From Capillimicrobium parvum (GTDB lineage: Bacteria > Actinomycetota > Thermoleophilia > Solirubrobacterales > Solirubrobacteraceae): 64,000 nt of DNA. Where the stretch lies: NCBI RefSeq assembly GCF_021172045.1, contig NZ_CP087164.1, positions 5,828,001-5,892,000 of the forward strand, written 5' to 3'. The notes under the pieces are model-generated. The model saw only the letters and a list, made by a program, of their open reading frames with translations. It was not told where the DNA came from and made no database searches. Of this stretch, positions 2,726-46,926 are shown piece by piece. The position numbers and the translations under genes are program-made. Each line of letters begins with the position of its first letter. Within the stretch, counting starts at the first letter, position 1.

Positions 2726-3151
2726 ATGCGCCGCCTTCTCGCGCCGCTCGCGGTGGTCGCCCTGCTCGTCGCCACGGGTTGCGGCGAGGAGAAGACGGTG
2801 CTTGCGCCGGCGTGCACCGACAGCGCCGAGGCGATCGTCACGGCACTCGAGAAGGCGCCGGGCCCGGTCACGCTCGGCGACGGGACCACGCTGTCGCGCT
2901 GCGTCGACCAGGCGCGCTCGGACGTGGAGCTGCAGAGCCTCGGGATGGTCCTCACCAGCGCCGCCGAGCAGCTGGCCGAGCAGCGCCGCATGGTGGCGCT
3001 CGGCTACCTGGTTGGTGCGGCGCGGCGCGGCGCGGAGCACAACGGCGGCGTGGGGACCGAGCTCGTGCGCCGGCTGGAGGGCACCGGCCGCCTGGTGGGC
3101 GACGGGCCGGATCTGCGGCGGGGGCTGAGGGCTGGGAACGCGAGCGGATGA
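2726..3151 (+). CDS. Putative lipoprotein of unknown function
   Basis: A 141-aa protein with an n-region MRR, a hydrophobic core (LLAPLAVVALLVA) and a Cys in VATGC, which fits a lipoprotein signal ending at Cys20. The mature part is small and mostly helical, with two Cys residues (PACTD, SRCVD) that could form a disulfide. I do not recognise the family. Its last codons overlap the alpha/beta hydrolase gene (ATGA), so the two are probably translated together. The Gly/Arg-rich tail (RRGLRAGNASG) may be weakly constrained. Confidence 0.65.
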   Translation: MRRLLAPLAVVALLVATGCGEEKTVLAPACTDSAEAIVTALEKAPGPVTLGDGTTLSRCVDQARSDVELQSLGMVLTSAAEQLAEQRRMVALGYLVGAARRGAEHNGGVGTELVRRLEGTGRLVGDGPDLRRGLRAGNASG

Positions 3152-3981
3152 AGCTGCGCCTCTACCACCACCGCGACGGCGCGCGCGTCGCCTACCGGGA
3201 GGCGGGGACGGGCCCCGGCCTCGCGATCCTGCACTCGGCGATGCTCTCGCACCGCGAGTGGGAGCCCGTCGTCGAGTACCTCAGCGACCGGTATCGCGTC
3301 GTGCTGCCCGACCTGCCGCTGCACGGCGACTCCGAGGACCGCCCGCGCCACCCGTACACGCTCGCGTGGCTGTCGGAGGTGATGGCGGGGTTCATCCGCG
3401 AGACGTGCGGCCCACGCCCGCTCGCCGCCGGCCACGAGCTCGGCGCCGAGCTGCTGCTGCGCGGCGTCGCGTCGGGCGCGCTTCAGCCGTCCAAGCTCGT
3501 GCTGATGGGCTGCTCGCTGCACCGCGTCGCGCCGCGGCGGCGGGCGTGGCGGGTGGCGGCGCGGGCGGGGGCGGTGCCGGTGCTCGACCGCGCCGTCGCC
3601 CACGGCGCGCGGGTCGTGCTGCGCCCCGAGGTCGGGGTGCGCCTCTCGGCCCAGGCCAACCCGGCCGCGCGCGACCTCGTGCGCCACGCGGTCGCCGACG
3701 TCGGCGGCAACGCGAACCTGGCCCGCTCGTGGGCGAAGTTCGCGCGCTCCTGGCCGCCGCGCTCCCCGCGCCGGGAGGCGCTCGACGAGCTCGCGTCGAT
3801 CGCCTGCCCGACTCTGCTGCTATGGGCCGGCCAGGACCGCGTGCACCCGCTCGAGACCGCCGAGGAGGCGGTCGACCTCCTCCCCGACGGACAGCTGCGC
3901 GTGCTGCCCGAGTCCGGGTTCCTCATGGCCTACGACGACCCCGCGGGCGTGGCCCGGGAGCTTGGGGCGTTCCTGGTCTGA
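3148..3981 (+). CDS. Alpha/beta-hydrolase fold protein lacking the nucleophile and catalytic His
   Basis: A 277-aa protein with the alpha/beta-hydrolase order: AGTGPGLAILHS (oxyanion loop), VVLPDLPLHGDSED (strand 4 region), a nucleophile elbow, a cap, WAGQDRVHP (acid) and a C-terminal His region. At the elbow the sequence is GHELG (residues 95-99), so the usual Ser is Glu97. The motif that normally carries the catalytic His reads PESGFLMAYDDP, with Phe258 in the His position. Only the acidic residue (Asp230) remains. A non-catalytic binding role or new chemistry is therefore more likely than ordinary hydrolysis. The start ATG 3148 overlaps the stop of the lipoprotein gene. Confidence 0.8.
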   Translation: MKLRLYHHRDGARVAYREAGTGPGLAILHSAMLSHREWEPVVEYLSDRYRVVLPDLPLHGDSEDRPRHPYTLAWLSEVMAGFIRETCGPRPLAAGHELGAELLLRGVASGALQPSKLVLMGCSLHRVAPRRRAWRVAARAGAVPVLDRAVAHGARVVLRPEVGVRLSAQANPAARDLVRHAVADVGGNANLARSWAKFARSWPPRSPRREALDELASIACPTLLLWAGQDRVHPLETAEEAVDLLPDGQLRVLPESGFLMAYDDPAGVARELGAFLV

Positions 3982-4018
3982 GGTCGGCCTCGAGTCAGCC
4001 TCTAACGTGACAGGGATC

Positions 4019-36002: not shown

Positions 36003-37292
36003 ATGGAGGATCAGCTCTTCCCCACCGCCGACGAGCCGCCGCCGTCGGCGCGCCCGCTGCAGCCGGCCACGGACCCCGCCGCCCCGCTGCCCGCGCGGAT
36101 GCGCCCCACGTCGCTCGGCGAGGTCGTCGGCCAGGGACATCTCCTCGGCGAGGGCTCGGCCCTGCGCCGCGCCATCGAGGAGGGCCGGCCGCATTCGATG
36201 CTGCTCTACGGGCCGCCGGGCAGCGGCAAGACCACGCTCGCCCGCATCGTCGCGACGAGCGCGAACGCCGCGTTCGAGGAGCTCAGCGCCGTCCAGGTCG
36301 GCCGGCCCGAGATCCGCGGCGTCATCGAGCGCGCGGCGCACCGCCGCCGGTCCGGCCAGCGCACGGTCTTCTTCCTCGACGAGATCCACCGCTTCAACAA
36401 GGCCCAGCAGGACGCCCTGCTGCCGGCGGTCGAGGAGGGCCTCGTGACGCTGATCGGCGCGACGACGGAGAACCCGTACTTCGAGGTGAACTCGGCGCTG
36501 CTGAGCCGGATGCAGGTCTACGAGCTGCAGCCGCTGTCGGCGGACGACGTGGCGGTCCTGCTGCGGCGGACGGGCGCGGAGATCGACGACGAGGCGCTCG
36601 ACTTCCTGGCCGAGCGGTCGGGCGGGGACGCACGCACGGCGCTCGGCGCCCTCGAGCTCGCGGTCGAGACCGCGGGGCGCGTGACGCTCGCCGCCGCGGA
36701 GGACGCGTCGCAGCGCCGGGCGATCCGCTATGACCGCGCCGGCGATCAGCACTACGACCTCGCCTCGGCGTGGATCAAGGCCACACGCGGGTCGGATCCC
36801 GACGCGTCGCTCTACTACCTGGCGGTGATGCTCGAGGGCGGCGAGGACGCGCGGTTCATCGTGCGGCGGATGGTCATCTTCGCCTCCGAGGACGTCGGCA
36901 ACGCGGACCCGCAGGCGCTCGTCATGGCGGTGGCCGCGGCGCAGGCCGTGGAGCACGTCGGGATGCCCGAGGCGCACTACGCCCTCGCGCAGGCGGCGAT
37001 CTACCTGGCCCTGGCGCCGAAGTCCAACGCCGAGGGCCGCGCGCTGCACGCCGCGCGCGCCCAGGTCCGCGAGCACGGCGCGGCCCCGCCGCCGCCGTAT
37101 CTGCGTTCACCTCCCGGTCCGGACGGCCGCGGCTACGACTATCCGCACGACAACCCGGGCCACCTCACGCGGCAGAACCTGATGCCTCCGGGGCTGGAGG
37201 GGCTGCGGTTCTATGCGCCGGACGAGCACGAGGACGAGATGGCGCGGCGGCTGGACGAGATCGAGCGCGGCCGCGGGCGGCGCGGGGAGTGA
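36003..37292 (+). CDS. rarA: Replication-associated recombination protein A (MgsA/WRNIP1 family)
   Basis: A 429-aa AAA+ ATPase that acts at stalled replication forks. Walker A GPPGSGKT is at 70-77, Walker B FFLDEIHRFNKAQQDALLPAVEEG follows, then sensor 1 LIGATTENPYFEVNSALLSRMQVY. The C-terminal half holds the RarA-specific oligomerisation region (YDLASAWIKATRGSDPDASLYYLAVMLEGGEDARFI and FASEDVGNADP). The start is ATG 36003. The final TGA overlaps the ATG of the ALDH-like gene (TGATG), so both are on one message. Confidence 0.94.
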   Translation: MEDQLFPTADEPPPSARPLQPATDPAAPLPARMRPTSLGEVVGQGHLLGEGSALRRAIEEGRPHSMLLYGPPGSGKTTLARIVATSANAAFEELSAVQVGRPEIRGVIERAAHRRRSGQRTVFFLDEIHRFNKAQQDALLPAVEEGLVTLIGATTENPYFEVNSALLSRMQVYELQPLSADDVAVLLRRTGAEIDDEALDFLAERSGGDARTALGALELAVETAGRVTLAAAEDASQRRAIRYDRAGDQHYDLASAWIKATRGSDPDASLYYLAVMLEGGEDARFIVRRMVIFASEDVGNADPQALVMAVAAAQAVEHVGMPEAHYALAQAAIYLALAPKSNAEGRALHAARAQVREHGAAPPPPYLRSPPGPDGRGYDYPHDNPGHLTRQNLMPPGLEGLRFYAPDEHEDEMARRLDEIERGRGRRGE

Positions 37293-38734
37293 TGGCGCCC
37301 GCCCCCGGCGTCGCCGCGCTCGTCGCGTCGAGCGCGCAGGTCCAGCCGCTCTGGGCCGCGCTGCGGCTCCCGGACCGCGCCCGCTACCTGCGCCGCGCGG
37401 CCCAGGCGGTCATCGACGAGCTCGACGAGCTGGCGGGCGTGCTCGGCGCGGAGGGCGGGCGCGAGCGGGCGGAGGTCATCGCGCTCGAGCTGCTGCCGTC
37501 GATCGACGCGCTGCGCTGGCTGGCCGAGGGCGGCGTGCGGGCGCTGCGCGAGCGGCGGCTCGCCGTGCCGCGCGCGACGAGCCCGGTCACGCGCGCCCGC
37601 CGCACCTACGAGCCGCTGGGCGTCGTCGCGATCGTCGGGGCCGGGGACGCGCCCTTCGCCCAGCCGCTGTGGCAGATCGGCGCCGCGCTGCTGGCCGGCA
37701 ACGGCGTCGTGCTCAAGCCGTCGCCGCGGGCGCGGGTCGCCGGCGCCCGGATCGCGCGGCTCTTCGCCCGCGCCGGCCTGCCGGAGGGCCTGCTCGCCCT
37801 CGCGCCGGGCGGCGACGAGGTCGGCCGCGGGCTCGTCGCGACGCCGGGCATCGCGAAGGTCGCGTTCACCGGGACCCGCTCCGCCGGGCAGGAGGTCGCG
37901 CTGGGGGCCGCGCGTGCCGGCGTGGCCGTCGCCCTGGAGACGGCGGGCGTCGGCGCGGCGCTCGTACTCGCCGATGCCGGGATCCCCCGGGCCGCGCGCG
38001 GCGTGGTCAACGCGGCGTTCGCCGCCGCCGGCCGGACGCGCGGAGCGCTGCGCCGCGCCTTCGTGGCCGATGCCGTCCACGACGCGTGGCTCGAGGCGGT
38101 CGGCGAGGCGGCGCGCGCGCTCCCGCCGGTCGCCGATCCCGGGAGCGTGCCCCGGCTCGTCGACGAGGCGCTCGCGGCGGGCGCCCGCCTCGTGGCCGGG
38201 GGACCCGAACCCGGCGCCGGCGGCGACGGCGCGCCGGCCGCGTGGCGCCCCGCGGTGCTCGCCGGCGTGACCGGCGACATGCGCGTCGCCCGGGACCCCT
38301 CCGACGGCCCGCTGCTCGCGGTCACGCGCGTGGCCTCCACCGACGAGGCGATCGCCGCCGTCCAGGAGCTGCCCGCGGGCCCCGGCACCTCGGTGTGGAC
38401 GGCCGACCGCTACGAGGGCGAACGGATCGCGCGAGCGCTGCACACCGGCGCGACGTGGCTCAACGACCACCGCGTCGTCCCTGCCCTCCCGGCCGCGCCG
38501 TGGGGCGGCGCCGGCGGCGAGGACGCCCTGCGCGCCTTCGCCGACCCGCGCGTGATGACGTGGGAGCCGCCGGCCGGCAGCGCCCTGTGGTGGGGCCCGT
38601 ACGACGCGACCCTCGAACGCGCCGGCCGCGCGGTGGCCGAGCTGCGGTCGGTGCGCGACCGCGATCGCGAGCGGGCGCTGCGCCATGGCCCGCTGCCGCT
38701 CGCGAAGGTCGTCGCGCGCGCGCTCAGGCGGTGA
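37292..38734 (+). CDS. Aldehyde dehydrogenase-fold protein without catalytic Cys (pseudo-enzyme)
   Basis: A 480-aa member of the ALDH superfamily by overall order: GAGDAPFAQPLWQIGAALLAGNGVVLKP (NAD-binding start), KVAFTGTRSAGQEV, ALETAGVGAALVLADA, and TGATWLND near the end. Key residues have changed. The Asn of PWNFP is Asp119, and the catalytic Cys position (canonical GQxC) is Arg250 in AAGRTRGALRRAF. Glu216 remains but in TAG rather than LGG context, and EEIFGPV has become DPSDGPL. Oxidation of aldehydes is therefore unlikely; a structural or cofactor-sensing role is possible. The start ATG overlaps the rarA stop, and its stop abuts the convergent oxygenase stop within TGATCA. Confidence 0.8.
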   Translation: MAPAPGVAALVASSAQVQPLWAALRLPDRARYLRRAAQAVIDELDELAGVLGAEGGRERAEVIALELLPSIDALRWLAEGGVRALRERRLAVPRATSPVTRARRTYEPLGVVAIVGAGDAPFAQPLWQIGAALLAGNGVVLKPSPRARVAGARIARLFARAGLPEGLLALAPGGDEVGRGLVATPGIAKVAFTGTRSAGQEVALGAARAGVAVALETAGVGAALVLADAGIPRAARGVVNAAFAAAGRTRGALRRAFVADAVHDAWLEAVGEAARALPPVADPGSVPRLVDEALAAGARLVAGGPEPGAGGDGAPAAWRPAVLAGVTGDMRVARDPSDGPLLAVTRVASTDEAIAAVQELPAGPGTSVWTADRYEGERIARALHTGATWLNDHRVVPALPAAPWGGAGGEDALRAFADPRVMTWEPPAGSALWWGPYDATLERAGRAVAELRSVRDRDRERALRHGPLPLAKVVARALRR

Positions 38735-39535
38735 TCAGGCCGCCCGCGCGGCGGGCACCAGCCGCAGCCGCGGCGGCAGCAGCGGCACGACCAGGCGCTT
38801 GACGTACTCCGCGCCCCCGCGGACGGCCAGGCCGCGCAGCGGGTCCCAGCGCAGCCCGTACATGGCGCGCACCCGCCCGGGCAGCAGCCCGATCGTGATC
38901 TGGTTGGCGAGCTCGAGCAGCGGCCGGGCGCGCAGCGGCACCGGCGGGCGCAGCACGATCCGGATCGCGAGCTCGCGCGCCTCGTCGCCGACGAAGAGGT
39001 CCCCGCCGCCGACCATGTCGCGCCAGTACGCCTCGAGCTCCTCGATCGTGTCCGGCATCTCGGCGTCGGCCAGGCCGAAGAGCGAGCCGATCACCCGGTA
39101 GTCCGTCCAGTACGCGTTGCGCTCGTCGCGCGACAGCGACGAGACGTAGCGCTCGTAGACCACGAGCGCCGAGTTCGCCAGCGCCGCGAGGATCCACAGC
39201 AGCAGCTCCGGGTCGTCGGCGCGGTACGGCGTACCGGCCGGGAAGCGCCCCGCCGGCTCGCGCAGCTCCCCGCTCACGCGCCCGTGCATCGCCCGGACGA
39301 CCCGCGTCGCGCGCTCGGCATCGGCGGCCTCGCCGAACGCGATCGTGTCGAGCACCTGCGCGGTGCGCGAGAGCCGCTCGTACGGCTCGTCGAGGGCGCC
39401 CGTGTGGGCGAAGAACCCGGCGAACGCCACCGGGTGGGCGGCCTGCAGCAGCAGGGCGCGCGGGCCGCTGAGCGCCACGACCGACTCGCGATGGACGCGG
39501 CGCAGCATGGAGTCGTCGGTGAACATCGAGGCCAT
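38735..39535 (-). CDS. MpaB/latex-clearing-type oxygenase-like protein (DUF2236)
   Basis: A 266-aa protein of the DUF2236/MpaB family, in which several members bind b-type heme and act as oxygenases. The conserved N-terminal SVVALSGPRALLLQAAHPVAFAGF, the block DTIAFGEAADAERATRVVRAMHGRV, and the helix WILAALANSALVVYERYV are present. His in AAHP and in AMHGRV are candidate heme or active-site residues. The start is ATG 39535; a TTG one codon earlier and ATG 39526 also fit. Its stop shares the palindrome TGATCA with the ALDH-like gene. Confidence 0.8.
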   Translation of the reverse strand: MASMFTDDSMLRRVHRESVVALSGPRALLLQAAHPVAFAGFFAHTGALDEPYERLSRTAQVLDTIAFGEAADAERATRVVRAMHGRVSGELREPAGRFPAGTPYRADDPELLLWILAALANSALVVYERYVSSLSRDERNAYWTDYRVIGSLFGLADAEMPDTIEELEAYWRDMVGGGDLFVGDEARELAIRIVLRPPVPLRARPLLELANQITIGLLPGRVRAMYGLRWDPLRGLAVRGGAEYVKRLVVPLLPPRLRLVPAARAA

Positions 39536-39586
39536 CAACCCGAGGGTACGTACCGGGCCGCGCGCTTGGACGTCCGCCGCCCGACC

Positions 39587-40621: not shown

Positions 40622-41356
40622 ATGCCTGCCGCCGCCTATGCCGGAAAGCCGTGTGTCTGCCAGTTCCGTCGCGGCACGTGCGACCAGACCTGCGTGCGCG
40701 ACATGCTCGACACCCCGTTCTACGTCGCGTGCCTGAAGCTGCGGAACCGCCGCTGCCTCGTCGTCGGGGGCGGCGAGATCGGCCTCGAGAAGGTCGAGGG
40801 GCTCCTGGCCTGCGACGGCGACGTGACCGTCATCGCCCCGGAGATCGGCCCCGAGCTCGAGCGGCTCGCCGACGAGGGCTCGATCGCGTGGGAGCGGCGC
40901 GAGTACGCCGGCGCGCAGGACCTCGACGGCGTCTTCATGGTCATTGCCGCGACCGACGACACCGACGTCAACATCCGCATCTACGACGACGCCGAGGAGC
41001 GGGCGATGCTCGTCAACGTCGTCGACGTGCCGCCGCTGTGCAACTTCATCCTGCCGGCGATCGTCCGCACCGGCCCGCTGGCCATCGCGATCTCCACCGC
41101 CGGGGCGTCGCCCGCGCTGGCCAAGCGCATGAAGCGCCAGATCGCCGAGCAGTACGGCGAGCCCTACGCCCGGCTGGCGGTCATGCTCAACGACGCCCGC
41201 GGCTGGGCGAAGGCGACGCTCCCGACCTACCAGGACCGCAAGGAGTTCTTCGAGGGCATCGTCAACGGCGAGCCCGACCCGATCGAGCTGCTGCGCGACG
41301 GCGACGATCAGGCGGTGCTCGACCTCATCCGCTCCGCACAGCTCGCGGCGGCCTGA
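40622..41356 (+). CDS. Precorrin-2 dehydrogenase / sirohydrochlorin ferrochelatase-like (Met8/CysG-N)
   Basis: A 244-aa NAD-dependent enzyme that oxidises precorrin-2 to sirohydrochlorin and may insert iron to give siroheme. The Rossmann motif is [17 protein letters not shown], and the region [40 protein letters not shown] is typical of CysG-N/Met8. The first 27 residues contain four Cys (C11, C13, C20, C24), unusual for the family. The ribosome site (AGGAGG) lies only 1-2 nt before ATG 40622, so a downstream start such as GTG 40694 or ATG 40703 (MLDTPFY) is possible, and then the Cys segment would be untranslated. The CobA-HemD protein encoded in the same run supplies precorrin-2. Confidence 0.85.
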
Positions 41357-41380: not shown

Positions 41381-41860
41381 GTGGCCGACCAGCTCACGCA
41401 CCTCGACGAACGCGGGCAGGCCCGCATGGTCGACGTGGGCGCCAAGGACGTCACGCAGCGGCGCGCGGTCGCCCGCGCGCTCGTGCGCATGACCCCGGCG
41501 ACGGCCGCCGCGATCGCCGCCGGCAACGCGCCGAAGGGCGACGTCCTCGCCACCGCGCGGATCGCCGGCATCCAGGCGGCCAAGCGGACGAGCGAGCTGA
41601 TCCCGCTCTGCCACCCGCTGCCGCTCGACAAGGTCACCGTCGACGCCGAGGTCGACGCCGCCGCGGGCGTGGTCACGATCACGGCCGAGGCTCGCGTGAC
41701 CGCCCGCACGGGGGTCGAGATGGAGGCGCTCACCGCCGCGAGCGTCGCCGCGCTCACCGTCTACGACATGGTCAAGGGCATCGAGCGCGGCGTCGAGATC
41801 TCCTCGGTCGCGCTGCTCGAGAAAACCGGCGGCAAGTCGGACTACGCGCGCGGGTCCTAA
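41381..41860 (+). CDS. moaC: Cyclic pyranopterin monophosphate synthase MoaC
   Basis: A 159-aa enzyme of molybdenum cofactor synthesis that rearranges the MoaA product to cyclic pyranopterin. Conserved features are [34 protein letters not shown] with the substrate-binding His and Cys, [19 protein letters not shown], and [10 protein letters not shown] with the catalytic Lys. The start GTG 41381 lies 24 bp after the siroheme gene and 72 bp before moaB, all in one direction. No moaA is visible. Confidence 0.92.
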
Positions 41861-41932
41861 GGAAACGCGGCGCAGGCAGGCGCGACGCGCACCGGCATGG
41901 GCCCGCGCCCGCTCGTTAACCTCCCGCGCGCC

Positions 41933-42406
41933 ATGCGCTGCGCCGTCCTCACCGTCTCGACCAGCGTCGCCCGCCAGAAGCGGGACGACACGAGCGGCGA
42001 GCTGCTCGCCCGCCGCGCCGAGGAGGCGGGCGCCGACGTCGCCGCGATGGAGGTCGTGCCCGACGACTTCAGCCTCATCGAGGACCGGCTGTTCCACTAC
42101 GTCGACGAGGGATACGAGCTCGTCTTCACCACGGGCGGGACCGGGCTCACCCCGGACGACGTCACGCCCGAGGCGACGCGCCACGTCATCGACCGCGAGG
42201 TGCCGGGCCTGGCCGAGGCGATGCGCGCCGAGTCGCTGCGCAACACCCCGATGGGGGCGCTGTCGCGCGGCCTGGCCGGCGTCGCCGCGGGGACCCTGAT
42301 CGTCAACTTCCCCGGCAGCCCGAAGGCGATCGACGAGGTCTTCGGCGTGGTCGCCCCCGTGCTCGCGCACGCGGTCGCCACGATCCGCGGTGACCACCGC
42401 CATTGA
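41933..42406 (+). CDS. Molybdenum cofactor protein MoaB/MogA family
   Basis: A 157-aa molybdopterin-binding protein of the MoaB/MogA family, which adenylylates molybdopterin for metal insertion. Binding motifs are VFTTGGTGLTPDDVTPEAT (residues about 65-83) and the SRGLAGVAAGTLIVNFPGSPKAI C-terminal segment. I chose ATG 41933 (MRCAVLTVS); the frame is open to 41897, where the added residues look like intergenic sequence. The last 17 bp overlap the start of the CcmA gene. Confidence 0.88.
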   Translation: MRCAVLTVSTSVARQKRDDTSGELLARRAEEAGADVAAMEVVPDDFSLIEDRLFHYVDEGYELVFTTGGTGLTPDDVTPEATRHVIDREVPGLAEAMRAESLRNTPMGALSRGLAGVAAGTLIVNFPGSPKAIDEVFGVVAPVLAHAVATIRGDHRH

Positions 42407-43088
42407 GCTCGACGGCGTCGGGCGCTCCTACGGCGAGCGAGCGGCGCTCGCCGGCGTCTCGCTGACGCTGGAGGCCGGCCGCACGCTCGTGATCTTCGGG
42501 CCCAACGGCGCGGGCAAGTCGACGCTGCTGCGCGTCCTCGCGACGCTGCTGCGCCCGACCGCCGGCACGGTGCGCGTCCTCGGCGAGCCGCTGCCCGACC
42601 AGGCGTGGGCGGTGCGCGGCCGGATCGGCCTGCTCGGCCACGACCCGCTGCTGTACCGCCAGCTCAGCGCCCGCGAGAACCTGCGCTACCACGCGCGCCT
42701 GCACTCGGTGCCCGAGACGCGGGTGGCCGAGATGCTGGACGCGATCGGCCTCGCCCGCCGCGCCGACGAGCCGGTCGCGCTGCTGTCGCGCGGCATGGTG
42801 CAGCGGGTCGCCGTCGCCCGCGCGGTCCTCCACGACCCCGACCTGCTGCTGCTCGACGAGCCGCGGGCGAATCTCGATCCGGCCGCCGCGGAGCTGCTCG
42901 AGCCGCTCCTGCGCGGGACGAGCGAGGGCCGCGGCGGGCGGGCGCGCACCCGCGTCATCACGAGCCACGATCCCGCCGGCGGGCTGGCCGAGGCCGACGT
43001 CGCGCTCGGCCTGCGCGGCGGCCGTGCCGCGCTCGTCGCCGCGGCCGCCGACGTCACCACCGCGCAGATCGGGGCGCTGTACCGGTGA
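42390..43088 (+). CDS. ccmA: Heme exporter ATP-binding protein CcmA
   Basis: A 232-aa ABC ATPase of the CcmABCD complex that releases holo-CcmE in System I cytochrome c maturation. Walker A is GPNGAGKSTL, the signature is LSRGMVQRVAVARA (the CcmA form of LSGGQ) and Walker B is LLLLDEPRANLDP. The start is GTG 42390, inside the 3' end of moaB. CcmB begins at an overlapping GTGA at its stop. Confidence 0.9.
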   Translation: MTTAIELDGVGRSYGERAALAGVSLTLEAGRTLVIFGPNGAGKSTLLRVLATLLRPTAGTVRVLGEPLPDQAWAVRGRIGLLGHDPLLYRQLSARENLRYHARLHSVPETRVAEMLDAIGLARRADEPVALLSRGMVQRVAVARAVLHDPDLLLLDEPRANLDPAAAELLEPLLRGTSEGRGGRARTRVITSHDPAGGLAEADVALGLRGGRAALVAAAADVTTAQIGALYR

Positions 43089-43756
43089 GGGTCGCGCTCG
43101 CCGTCCTGCGCAAGGAGCTGCGCCTGGAGCTGCGCACGCTCGAGTCGATCCCCGGCATGGCGCTGTTCTCGGTCACGACGTTCGTCGTGTTCCACTTTGC
43201 CCTGCATCGCGGGCAGGTCGAGGGCGACCTGGCCGCCGGCATCCTCGTCGTGACGCTGCTGTTCGCCGGGATGCTCGGCCTGAACCGCCTCTACGTCGCC
43301 GACGAGGAGCAGGGCGGCTTCGACGGCTTCCTGCTCGCTCCGGTCGACCGCACCTGGCTGTTCGTCGCCAAGGCGCTCGCGCTGCTCGCCTACCTCGTCG
43401 TGCTCGAGATCGTCGCCGTCCCCGCGTTCGCGCTGCTGCTGCTCGGCCCCGGGATCGACCAGGCGCTGCCCGAGCTCGTCGGCGTCCTGCTGCTGGCCGA
43501 CATCGGCTTCGCGATCATCGCCGCGCTGGTCGGCGCGCTCGCCGTGCGCACCCGAGCGCGGGACCTCGTGGGCCCCCTGATCGCGCTGCCGCTGCTCGTC
43601 CCGGTGGTCATCGGCACGGCCCGCGCGCTCGAGCCGCTGCTGCTCGAAGGTGGCGCGGAGCCGGTCCCCGCCCGCTGGCTGTTGATCCTCGGCCTGTACG
43701 ATCTGATCTTCGGACTGCTTGCGATAGCGGTCTTCGATCCGTTGCTGGAGGACTGA
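43085..43756 (+). CDS. ccmB: Heme exporter permease CcmB
   Basis: A 223-aa membrane protein with about six helices that pairs with CcmA. Family blocks VLRKELRLELRTLESIPGMALFSVTTFVVFHFAL, the FAGMLGLNRLYVADEEQGGFDGFLLAPVDR loop and PLIALPLLVPVVIGTARALEPLL are all present. The start GTG 43085 overlaps the ccmA stop. CcmC begins 7 bp after its own stop. Confidence 0.9.
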   Translation: MRVALAVLRKELRLELRTLESIPGMALFSVTTFVVFHFALHRGQVEGDLAAGILVVTLLFAGMLGLNRLYVADEEQGGFDGFLLAPVDRTWLFVAKALALLAYLVVLEIVAVPAFALLLLGPGIDQALPELVGVLLLADIGFAIIAALVGALAVRTRARDLVGPLIALPLLVPVVIGTARALEPLLLEGGAEPVPARWLLILGLYDLIFGLLAIAVFDPLLED

Positions 43757-43763
43757 AGCCCTC

Positions 43764-44486
43764 ATGTACGGCAAGGGGCTGCGCGCCCTCTCCGTCACCA
43801 CCCTCATCACCCTCGTCGGCGCCTTCGCGCTCGTCTTCTTCTACGCGCCCAACGACGCCGACCAGGGCTTCGTGCAGAAGATCTTCTACGTGCACGTGCC
43901 GATGGCCATCGTGGCGCTCTTCGGCTTCATCGCCGGCGGGATCTTCGCCATCCAACATCTGCGTACGCGCGACCCGCGCCACGACCTGCGCTCGTACGTC
44001 GCGATCCACATCTCGCTGATCCTGGCGATCGGCGTGCTCGTCACCGGTTCGATCTGGGCACGCGCGGCGTGGGGCCACTGGTGGGTGTGGGACGAGCCGA
44101 CGCTCGTGTCGTTCCTCATCGTCTTCCTGCTCTACGCGACCTACCAGCCGCTGCGCTTCTCGATCGAGGACCCTGAGCGCCAGGCCCGCTACGCGAGCGT
44201 CTTCGCCGTCATCGCCGGCGCCTTCGTGCCGCTCAACTTCCTCGCCGTGCGCCTCGCGCAGGCGTACACGCACCCGCGGGTGCTCGGCACGACCGGAGGC
44301 TCCATGCCGGGCGACATGCGGCTGACCTTCCTCATCGCGATCGTCGGCATGGCGCTCCTGTTCATCACCTTGTGGAAGTTCGAGATGGCCGCCAAGCACG
44401 CGCGCGCCAACCTGCGCTCGCTGCGGCGCAAGCTCGGCGTCGACGAGGTCCCCGCCGCGCGGCGCACCGCCGCCCCCTCGCTCTGA
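43764..44486 (+). CDS. ccmC: Cytochrome c biogenesis protein CcmC
   Basis: A 240-aa, six-helix heme-handling protein. The tryptophan-rich motif AWGHWWVWDEP (about residues 102-112) binds heme on the outer face, flanked by candidate axial His such as His44 (YVHVP) and His in the HPR segment (AYTHPRVLG). The C-terminal 40 residues are basic and cytosolic. Its TGA shares bases with the ATG of the small CcmD-like gene. No ccmE, ccmF or ccmH is in view. Confidence 0.9.
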   Translation: MYGKGLRALSVTTLITLVGAFALVFFYAPNDADQGFVQKIFYVHVPMAIVALFGFIAGGIFAIQHLRTRDPRHDLRSYVAIHISLILAIGVLVTGSIWARAAWGHWWVWDEPTLVSFLIVFLLYATYQPLRFSIEDPERQARYASVFAVIAGAFVPLNFLAVRLAQAYTHPRVLGTTGGSMPGDMRLTFLIAIVGMALLFITLWKFEMAAKHARANLRSLRRKLGVDEVPAARRTAAPSL

Positions 44487-44732: not shown

Positions 44733-46067
44733 GTGATGAGCGCCGAGGTCCTCTGCCTGGGCATCTCGTTCAAGACGGCGCCCGTCGCGCTGCGCGAGCG
44801 CCTGGCCATGACCGACACGGGCGCGGCCGAGTTCCTGCGCGACGCGATCGATGTGCCCAGCGTGCACGAGGCCGCCGTCATCTCGACCTGCAACCGCACC
44901 GAGATCTACCTCGTCTCGCCGAACCCGGTCGCCGCCGAGAGCGCGGTCCTCGGCCTGCTGGCGACGCGCGCGGGCATCCGGCCGACGCAGCTCGCCGAGA
45001 TCATCTACGCGCCGCGCAACTGCGACGCCGCCCTCCAGCTCTACCGGGTCGCCGCCGGCCTGGAGTCGATGATCGTGGGCGAGGTCGAGGTGCAGGGTCA
45101 GGTCCGCCGCGCCCACGAGCTCGCGCGGGCGGCGGGCACGACCGGCCCGATGCTCAACCGCCTGTTCGGCGCCGCCGTGCAGACCGGCAAGCGCGTGCGC
45201 TCGGAGACCGCGATCTCCGAAGGTCGCGCGAGCGTCTCGTCCGTCGCGGTCCGCCTGGCCCAGGAGGTCATCGGCGACCTGCGTTCGCGCCACGTGGTGA
45301 TCGTCGGCGCCGGGGAGACCGCCGAGTTGACCGCGCAGGCGCTCGCGGAGCAGGGCGTCGCCACCGTGTTCCTGGCCAACCGGCGCGCCGACCGCGCCCG
45401 TTCGATCGCCGCGCGCTTCGGTGGCGAGGTCGTCTCGCTGCACGAGCTGCCCGACCAGCTCGCGCGCGCCGACATCGTCGTCGCGTCGACCGCCTCGCCG
45501 CACCCGATCATCGAGGCCGGCGGCCTGGAGGTCGTCATGGCGCAGCGCCCCGGCCGGCCCCTGCTGCTCATCGACATCGCCGTCCCGCGCGACATCGACC
45601 CCATGTGCGGCGACCTCGACGACGTGGCGCTCTACGACATCGACGACCTCCAGTCCGTCGTCGCGCACACGCTGTCAACCCGCTCCGTGGAGGCCGAGAT
45701 CGCCGAGCAGATCGTCGAGGAGGAGATCCACCGCTTCGCCCGCTGGATGGGTCAGCAGGACGTCCTGCCGACCGTGGCGGCGCTGCGCGAGCACGGACGG
45801 GGGATCGTCGACCAGGTGCTGGCCGAGAACCGCGGCCGCTGGGAGGGCGCGACGGACCGCGACCTCGCGCGCGTCGACGCGATCGCCCGCGCCGTCATGC
45901 AGCGCCTGCTGCACGAGCCGACGATCCGGGTGCGCGAGAGCGGCCATGGCCGCGTGGCGCTGGTGCGCGAGCTGTTCGGCATCGTCGAGGACCCGCCCGC
46001 GCGCGACGGCGAGGGCGAGACGACCGAGCCGCTGCGCGACAACGTCCGCCAGCTGCGCGGATCGTGA
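44733..46067 (+). CDS. hemA: Glutamyl-tRNA reductase
   Basis: A 444-aa enzyme that reduces glutamyl-tRNA(Glu) to glutamate-1-semialdehyde, the first committed step of C5 tetrapyrrole synthesis. The catalytic Cys53 lies in STCNRTEIY. The substrate/NADPH region begins HVVIVGAGETAELTAQAL and continues FLANRRADRA. The dimerisation helix region is present to the C-terminus. The start is GTG 44733 or ATG 44736, after GAGGGAGG. The downstream hemC begins 5 bp after the stop. Confidence 0.93.
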   Translation: MMSAEVLCLGISFKTAPVALRERLAMTDTGAAEFLRDAIDVPSVHEAAVISTCNRTEIYLVSPNPVAAESAVLGLLATRAGIRPTQLAEIIYAPRNCDAALQLYRVAAGLESMIVGEVEVQGQVRRAHELARAAGTTGPMLNRLFGAAVQTGKRVRSETAISEGRASVSSVAVRLAQEVIGDLRSRHVVIVGAGETAELTAQALAEQGVATVFLANRRADRARSIAARFGGEVVSLHELPDQLARADIVVASTASPHPIIEAGGLEVVMAQRPGRPLLLIDIAVPRDIDPMCGDLDDVALYDIDDLQSVVAHTLSTRSVEAEIAEQIVEEEIHRFARWMGQQDVLPTVAALREHGRGIVDQVLAENRGRWEGATDRDLARVDAIARAVMQRLLHEPTIRVRESGHGRVALVRELFGIVEDPPARDGEGETTEPLRDNVRQLRGS

Positions 46068-46071
46068 GGCG

Positions 46072-46926
46072 TTGCTGAGGATCGCCACGCGGGGCAGCGC
46101 GCTCGCGCTCGCCCAGGCGCGGCACGTGGCGACGCTGCTGGGCGGCGCTGAGCTGGTCGAGGTGGTGACGAGCGGCGATCGCCGCCGCGACGTCGAGGAC
46201 AAGCGCGAGTGGGTGGCCGAGATCGAGTCGGCGCTCGAGCGCGGCGAGGCCGACCTCGCGGTCCACTCGGCCAAGGACGTTCCCGCCACGCTGCCCGACG
46301 GCTTCGTGATCGCCGCGGTGCCGCCGCGGGCGTCGCCCTACGACGCGCTGTGCGGCGCCTCCGGCCTCGACGCGCTCGACGAGGGCGCCCGCGTCGGCAC
46401 GAGCTCGCTGCGCCGCGCGGCGGCGCTGCACGCGCTGCGCCCCGACCTCGACGTCGTGGAGCTGCGCGGCAACGTCGACACCCGGCTGCGCAAGCTCGCC
46501 GCGGGCGAGTGCGACGCCGCGGTGCTGGCGCTGGCCGGGCTCGAACGCCTGGGCCGGGCTGATGCGGCCGGGGCGGTGCTCGAGGCGGTCGTGCCGGCCT
46601 CGGGCCAGGGGGCGCTGCTGCTCGAGGCCCACGTGGAGGCGGCCGAGGCGCTGCAGGCGGCGCGGACCATCAGCGACCCGGCCGCGGAGCGGACCCTCGC
46701 CGCCGAGCGCAGCCTCGTCGCGGCGCTGGGCGCCGACTGCCGCACGCCGGTGGGCGCGCACGCGCGCGAGGGCGCGGACGGCGGGCTCGGCCTGCGGGCG
46801 TTCGTCGGCCGCGTCGACGGCTCGGAGTGGGTGATCGACGAGCTCGACGGCTTCGACGACCCCGCGGCCCTGGGCGCGGCGGTGGCGGCCCGGCTGCTCG
46901 CCGCGGGCGCCGGGGAGATGCTGTGA
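46072..46926 (+). CDS. hemC: Porphobilinogen deaminase (hydroxymethylbilane synthase)
   Basis: A 284-aa enzyme that links four porphobilinogens to hydroxymethylbilane on a dipyrromethane cofactor. The cofactor Cys223 lies in LGADCRTPVGAHA. N-terminal IATRGSALALAQA and the AVHSAKDVPATLP, VGTSSLRRAA and LRGNVDTRLRKL blocks are intact. The only suitable start is TTG 46072 (or CTG 46075), which fits the high-GC, GTG/TTG-rich style here. Its stop overlaps the start of the CobA-HemD gene (GTGA). Confidence 0.92.
   Translation: MLRIATRGSALALAQARHVATLLGGAELVEVVTSGDRRRDVEDKREWVAEIESALERGEADLAVHSAKDVPATLPDGFVIAAVPPRASPYDALCGASGLDALDEGARVGTSSLRRAAALHALRPDLDVVELRGNVDTRLRKLAAGECDAAVLALAGLERLGRADAAGAVLEAVVPASGQGALLLEAHVEAAEALQAARTISDPAAERTLAAERSLVAALGADCRTPVGAHAREGADGGLGLRAFVGRVDGSEWVIDELDGFDDPAALGAAVAARLLAAGAGEML

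Follow-up and report, generated by a model that had tools for sequence, protein, structure and literature searches.

The window, meaning the whole stretch of DNA analyzed here, comprises 64,000 nucleotides (positions 5828001-5892000) of the 5.95-Mb single-contig genome of Capillimicrobium parvum, an organism from a group whose named relatives belong chiefly to the Solirubrobacteraceae and Thermoleophilaceae. On its plus strand, at 37292..38734, lies one open frame of 480 codons with no internal stop, which encodes an aldehyde dehydrogenase (ALDH)-fold protein of 480 amino acids with zero cysteines, hereafter the pseudo-ALDH. The upstream neighbor on the same strand is rarA/mgsA (36003..37292), encoding an AAA+ ATPase with matches to MgsA_C (187 bits) and AAA_assoc_2. 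As the original prediction stated, the frame is intact and its start overlaps the rarA stop, the A of the ATG at 37292 being the last base of the TGA at 37290-37292. Beyond the ALDH, the order continues with an MpaB-type gene and two short genes, all in reverse orientation, followed by SirC, MoaC, MogA, CcmA, CcmB, CcmC, HemA and HemC.

The pseudo-ALDH was placed in the ALDH superfamily by both a profile match and its predicted fold. The match to PF00171 (Aldedh) covered residues 7-407 with 255.1 bits against a cut-off of 23, and pseudo-ALDHs scoring this far above the family-model cut-off are likely to be annotated as aldehyde dehydrogenases without having the chemistry. An AlphaFold2 model (predicted local distance difference test score, pLDDT, of 88.5) aligned with solved ALDHs at Z values of 41-43 across approximately residues 2-437, indicating that the fold is predicted to be whole except for the N-terminal hairpin. 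This hairpin is missing in the window genus and present in a full-length model of the relative L137 (pLDDT 92.4), which served solely to inspect it. At the other end, a C-terminal tail of residues 428-480 (WWGPYD...LRSVRDRDR; 38573..38734, plus strand) forms three helices in the model, lies mostly beyond the region covered by solved ALDHs and is common to orthologues with and without the catalytic cysteine.

In order to describe the active site, residues are given in human ALDH numbering, which we take to correspond to the motif letters discussed below. Alignment across the order puts Arg250 in the column of the catalytic cysteine (Cys302) and Asp119, within GAGDAP, in that of the oxyanion asparagine of the PWN motif (Asn169). 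The EEIFGPV stretch reads DPSDGPL, with Pro336 aligned to Glu399 and Asp338 to Phe401, so that neither nicotinamide contact is present. The two substitutions at the cysteine and asparagine and the degraded EEIFGPV motif had been read from the single sequence, and the alignment bears them out. Glu216 aligns with the general base Glu268, but the surrounding motif is degraded, with LELGGK changed to LETAGV (LETAGVG) and the first glycine and following lysine gone. Lys142 is the retained equivalent of Lys192, Ser246 is replaced by Thr195, GQ has become GR and the SGxGR region is absent. The roles of Glu268 as general base, of Glu399 and Phe401 as nicotinamide contacts and likewise that of Lys192 follow the published description (PMC8160307). 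Judged by these residues, the active site of the window protein is worn further than in other Cys-less copies, and the protein would most likely be unable to oxidize aldehydes.

Searches with the window protein covered the order and a class sample, with other phyla reached only through one contig scan. At family level 53 of 146 genomes gave a match (E≤1e-60), at order level 121 of 232 (E≤1e-57) and in the class sample 105 of 399, 5 of these 105 lying outside the order. Among the order matches listed, 123 loci from 121 genomes were scored, and the catalytic cysteine was absent from 47, present in 73 and uncovered in 3 fragments. The Cys-less loci were concentrated in family f1 (44 without, 9 with and 3 not covered), with 3 more in f2 beside 17 Cys-bearing ones; all 43 loci of f3 and all 4 of f4 carried the cysteine. 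Two genomes (G001 and G146) gave two contig fragments each, which appear to be one split gene in each case. The orthologue from the window's own genus, in G001, is divided between two contig ends (L085 and L086) near the catalytic region, at query residues 231/248. Replacement of the lost activity by a second Cys-bearing family copy was also considered, but each genome other than G001 and G146 gave one match at E≤1e-57 and no such copy was seen. Matches from the contig scan outside the group (L178-L180 and L182-L185) were weak, with no match at 1e-10 in L184, and no rarA was found in the loci checked. Two records titled Bifidobacterium breve and Chlamydiae (L156 and L171) carry clear family members and look mislabeled or derived from contaminated bins.

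For the residue counts, 11 of the 123 rows were set aside as fragments or doubtful, leaving 44 that are Cys-less and 68 that carry the cysteine. Across the Cys-less rows the residues of the catalytic chamber are nearly gone, with Trp168 retained in 0/44, Asn169 in 1/44, Cys302 in 0/44, Phe401 in 0/44 and Glu399 in 14/44. Other positions, fixed or near-fixed in the Cys-bearing rows, are kept: the TGS loop (Thr244 in 41/44, Gly245 in 44/44 and Ser246 in 40/44), Lys192 (34/44), Glu268 (39/44), the NDH motif (44, 42 and 44 of 44) and the WWxPYD tail (Trp 42, Trp 42, Pro 44, Tyr 41 and Asp 40 of 44). By mean majority fraction, the tail is conserved to the same degree in Cys-less and Cys-bearing rows (0.65 and 0.64), and the core (0.70 and 0.77) and N-terminus (0.58 and 0.70) are less conserved in the Cys-less rows. 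The other 43 full-length Cys-less rows start 17-39 residues upstream of the window Met1, although the exact figures lean on a script rule favoring starts at about -27 residues. Chemistry stripped from a protein whose fold, adenine-side loop and tail are retained is the pattern expected of a pseudoenzyme. A catalytic cysteine displaced by one residue was also considered, since 7 of the 44 Cys-less rows have a cysteine one position earlier (GQCGG). The spacing of the flanking motifs is unchanged, however, the other 37 rows have no cysteine within 3 residues and the window protein has none at all, and this idea was rejected.

The occupants of the vacated column bear on whether the protein has become a new enzyme, with non-thiol chemistry such as hydration or hydrolysis carried out by the Glu216 equivalent and a new arginine or glycine in the old pocket. 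Arginine replaces the cysteine in 14 of the 15 covering rows of the window subclade and the glutamate is widely retained, both as such chemistry would lead one to expect. However, most other Cys-less rows have glycine (23/44, with proline in 2/44), the same-genus sister L085 has glutamine at the Glu268 position and the oxyanion asparagine is replaced in 43/44. We consider this explanation highly unlikely.

The depth of the loss was examined in a careful IQ-TREE run on 75 rows, with 4 fragments excluded. One clade, supported at 100/99, holds 41 Cys-less rows, and the recent loss that would have refuted the original prediction was thus not found. Recent loss or sequencing error was ruled out because the cysteine is missing throughout this clade, and the loss appears to be old and common to a large group of relatives. 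L097, which reads GQSSSG and retains the asparagine, is Cys-less inside a Cys-bearing genus, indicating at least two losses; none of 200 bootstrap trees allowed a single cysteine change. In a quick tree of 116 rows, which carries a long-branch warning, the Cys-less group of f2.g47 (L187, L188 and L190) joins the main clade with an SH-like approximate likelihood ratio test (SH-aLRT) value of 90, a placement that may reflect either shared loss or long-branch attraction. The long branches of the window protein, L092 and L102 are placed less certainly.

On the basis of these losses and of the frames and codon patterns described below, we think it fairly probable that the gene is a conserved pseudo-ALDH, kept as a folded non-catalytic protein. 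The main and serious rival is slow decay, in which constraint has been weakening since the cysteine was lost, no new function has arisen and frames persist because loss takes long. Selection was estimated from Nei-Gojobori (NG86) and codon-position counts only, since maximum-likelihood dS was saturated (up to 33) for several pairs. Eleven Cys-less comparisons yielded NG86 omega values of 0.08-0.32; rarA, measurable in 9 of these pairs, gave 0.10-0.27, and 4 Cys-bearing pairs gave 0.14-0.21. The dN/dS check suggested earlier thus returned purifying selection. The ratio of changes at the first two codon positions to those at the third, (p1+p2)/2 : p3, was 0.28 (0.19-0.41) and 0.39 (0.28-0.50) for the window gene against two same-genus sister fragments. 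These values indicate that the window gene too is under constraint, which argues against slow decay. Five other Cys-less pairs gave 0.13-0.40 and one Cys-bearing control 0.27, so that all seven Cys-less comparisons fall at 0.13-0.40 with bootstrap upper limits no higher than 0.50. Among the 54 family matches listed, Cys-bearing ones included and drawn from many genera, none is interrupted by a stop; across the order, a single TAG occurs in one match that carries the cysteine (G193). The window gene shows neither a broken frame nor neutral codon evolution, and the near-fixed tail and NDH motifs of the 44 rows also sit poorly with decay.

Several observations weigh against retention as a functional protein, and some of them are what slow decay would produce. 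Protein distance to f3 orthologues relative to that of rarA was calculated from the 87 loci in which both genes were nearly complete, 34 of which formed the f3 reference. The median ratio was 1.83 in Cys-less loci (n=34) and 0.99 in Cys-bearing loci (n=19), and the window gene has the highest value, 2.49; the lowest Cys-less ratios were 1.04 in L065, where rarA is divergent, and 1.07 in L097. Faster yet constrained evolution of this kind fits a change of function and fits slow relaxation as well. The window gene has, according to its model, also lost the N-terminal hairpin, retention of the general base is unexpected if the chemistry was fully abandoned, and the link to the downstream heme/ccm cluster is one of gene order only.

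Eroded copies and clean absences add to these points, showing that some relatives can do without the protein. A Thermoleophilaceae locus (L176:3914-5338) has decayed motifs in an open frame of 474 codons beside rarA. In L243 (G014; reverse complement, approximately 2804-3997), a shortened ALDH beside rarA keeps an open frame of about 400 codons but has internal deletions, and its TGS, LELGG and GQxC regions are unrecognizable. Twelve genomes without the ALDH were searched and a rarA match was found in 8. Among the loci without the ALDH, rarA directly adjoins MpaB (L241 and L242) or SirC (L244 and L246), and no ALDH was seen near rarA in L245, L247 and L248. In L240, from the same genus as the window, MpaB lies 1.1 kb from rarA with no recognizable ALDH remnant in the interval. 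The graded series from stripped through shortened to absent copies is in line with slow decay. Taking both sides together we regard slow decay as unlikely, and retention of the pseudo-ALDH as a folded non-catalytic protein is preferred.

The original prediction singled out the coupling to rarA and proposed an interaction test with RarA. Unconserved linkage, the other outcome that would have refuted it, was not found either, since 95 of 123 loci have a same-strand rarA ahead of the ALDH. A RarA-linked function, with the pseudo-ALDH as a translationally coupled partner of a replication-fork ATPase, would also agree with the stop-start overlap seen in the window and, at the chosen starts, in 8 other Cys-less loci. 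The remaining Cys-less loci are 3 to 2387 nt apart, however, and over all loci the two genes can be separated by as much as about 2.6 kb, with other genes inserted. The link is also found beside Cys-bearing orthologues, at 53/73 loci compared with 42/50 Cys-less loci (the 47 plus the 3 uncovered fragments assigned by kinship). Among the 28 loci that lack this arrangement, 7 have at least 3 kb of upstream DNA yet no same-strand rarA, and 21 have less upstream DNA. In 12 f3 loci of genera g45 and g46 (L196, L198, L199, L201, L202, L206, L207, L210, L211, L214, L225 and L231) and in L105, rarA is matched elsewhere in the locus instead of preceding the ALDH on its strand. The ccm genes lie downstream of the ALDH in all 12 of these f3 loci except the short L231, indicating that the two linkages are separable. 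As rarA is also kept where the ALDH is absent, we find a RarA-linked function scarcely credible; adjacency is inherited gene order, gives no evidence of RarA function and is probably incidental. The rarA homologues of L065, L105, L247 and L248 are divergent (tblastn identity of 44-48%), and one of them is reversed, which suggests a second rarA type or replacement.

The downstream genes provide the context that was missing when the locus was described as having no obvious metabolic explanation, as a siroheme/molybdenum-cofactor/cytochrome c/heme cluster lies there. It starts with a homologue of the siroheme-type precorrin-2 dehydrogenase SirC (40622..41356, plus strand; NAD_binding_7 and Sirohm_synth_M). 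MoaC, a MogA-type protein, an ABC ATPase in the CcmA place, CcmB and CcmC follow in conserved order (41381..44486, plus strand; Pfam MoaC, MoCF_biosynth, ABC_tran, CcmB and Cytochrom_C_asm), and then HemA (glutamyl-tRNA reductase) and HemC (porphobilinogen deaminase; 44733..46926, plus strand; Pfam matches). SirC, MoaC, MogA, CcmA or CcmB is found downstream on the same strand in 103/123 loci (42/50 Cys-less and 61/73 Cys-bearing). L075 alone lacks the cluster despite at least 3 kb of downstream sequence, and in 19 loci the available DNA is too short for a decision. The ALDH of the five class-level genomes from outside the order is Cys-bearing with a similar WWFPYD or WWYPYG tail and lies upstream of MoaC, directly in four and 1.8 kb off in L238, with MogA and CcmA beyond MoaC in 4 of the 5. 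No rarA was seen near the ALDH in these five loci, with just 115 bases of upstream DNA in L238, which further weakens the case for RarA as a meaningful partner. The cluster is therefore the wider association and the one with rarA was probably added later; the rarA linkage is real but not special.

Between the ALDH and the cluster, on the minus strand and convergent with the ALDH, lies a gene for an MpaB/Lcp-type oxygenase domain protein (38735..39538; PF09995, 187 bits), and such a gene was called beside 24 orthologous loci. It was considered as an aldehyde source and rejected, since MpaB persists close to rarA in loci without the ALDH (L240, L241 and L242), indicating no co-retention of the two.

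If the pseudo-ALDH is indeed retained as a non-catalytic protein, its ancestor would have been an ordinary ALDH heading the siroheme/molybdenum-cofactor/cytochrome-c/heme cluster. Thiol chemistry would have been lost at the base of the large clade in the window's family and at least once independently elsewhere, with subsequent retention as a folded protein, and the non-catalytic role would most likely have arisen before or together with the loss of chemistry. The retained positions suggest that the protein may bind nucleotide, possibly as a dinucleotide- or adenosine-binding oligomer, and we infer that it could work as a binding or scaffold protein for a partner. That partner would most plausibly come from the adjacent tetrapyrrole/cytochrome cluster, a proposal held with much less confidence than retention itself. 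A fuller version would be a regulatory pseudo-dehydrogenase that spans the lineage and evolved repeatedly, in which the emptied nicotinamide/thiol chamber, together with a helical tail, NDH motif and adenosine-side pocket that are all near-fixed, would mark a dinucleotide-responsive scaffold or regulator of the adjacent heme, cytochrome-c and molybdenum-cofactor enzymes; this we offer as a tentative and rather doubtful possibility. One gene position provides a natural bacterial series that runs from copies of the active type through Cys-less copies still under constraint and eroded ones to absence, with at least two independent thiol losses, which bears on non-oxidizing roles of ALDHs and on whether a second role preceded the loss of catalysis.

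The closest comparison is with the Cys-bearing orthologues of the order (f2, f3, f4 and some f1 genera), which share the neighborhood and the WWxPYD tail and are about 34-44% identical to the window protein over near full-length matches. Unlike it, they have PWNYP (PWNFP in one), a GQTC-type motif and EEIFGPV in nearly every row, and with these motifs intact they would be expected to be active ALDHs. The best NCBIfam model for both the window protein (192.8 bits) and the Cys-bearing L096 (434.9 bits) is NF006916 (PRK09407), a succinic semialdehyde dehydrogenase, and both fall below its cut-off of 521 and are not members.

ALDH pseudoenzymes as such are already known, ALDH16A1 among them, and a further ALDH pseudo-domain is the inactive ALDH-like C-terminal domain found in some members of the PutA family. 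Human ALDH16A1 is described as an ALDH-fold pseudoenzyme that has lost its catalytic residues and is presumed to work through binding to other proteins (PMC10650815, PMC8160307), and the window protein likewise has an ALDH fold without catalytic residues. ALDH16, however, carries at its C-terminus a large additional cofactor-type domain that is non-functional (PMC8160307), whereas the window protein is a single PF00171 stretch that ends in a short, helical tail some 50 residues long and has no second domain of this kind. An ALDH from Thermus thermophilus (PDB 6FJX) is described as having a C-terminal arm beyond the usual oligomerization domain (PMC6127216); the window protein resembles it in having a tail, but 6FJX is an active enzyme with a catalytic cysteine. 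Among the titles and opening lines of abstracts returned by the literature search, whose coverage fell short of most subscription journals and all preprints, none dealt with a bacterial pseudo-ALDH that is linked to rarA or comes from the Solirubrobacterales.

Finally, the genome of C. parvum gave 35 PF00171 matches, and other ALDHs may cover any activity lost with the cysteine. Three adjacent PF00171 pieces on the minus strand of the same genome (G000:C1:2995804-2998665; profile positions 195-460, 88-194 and 1-94) look like one broken ordinary ALDH gene.

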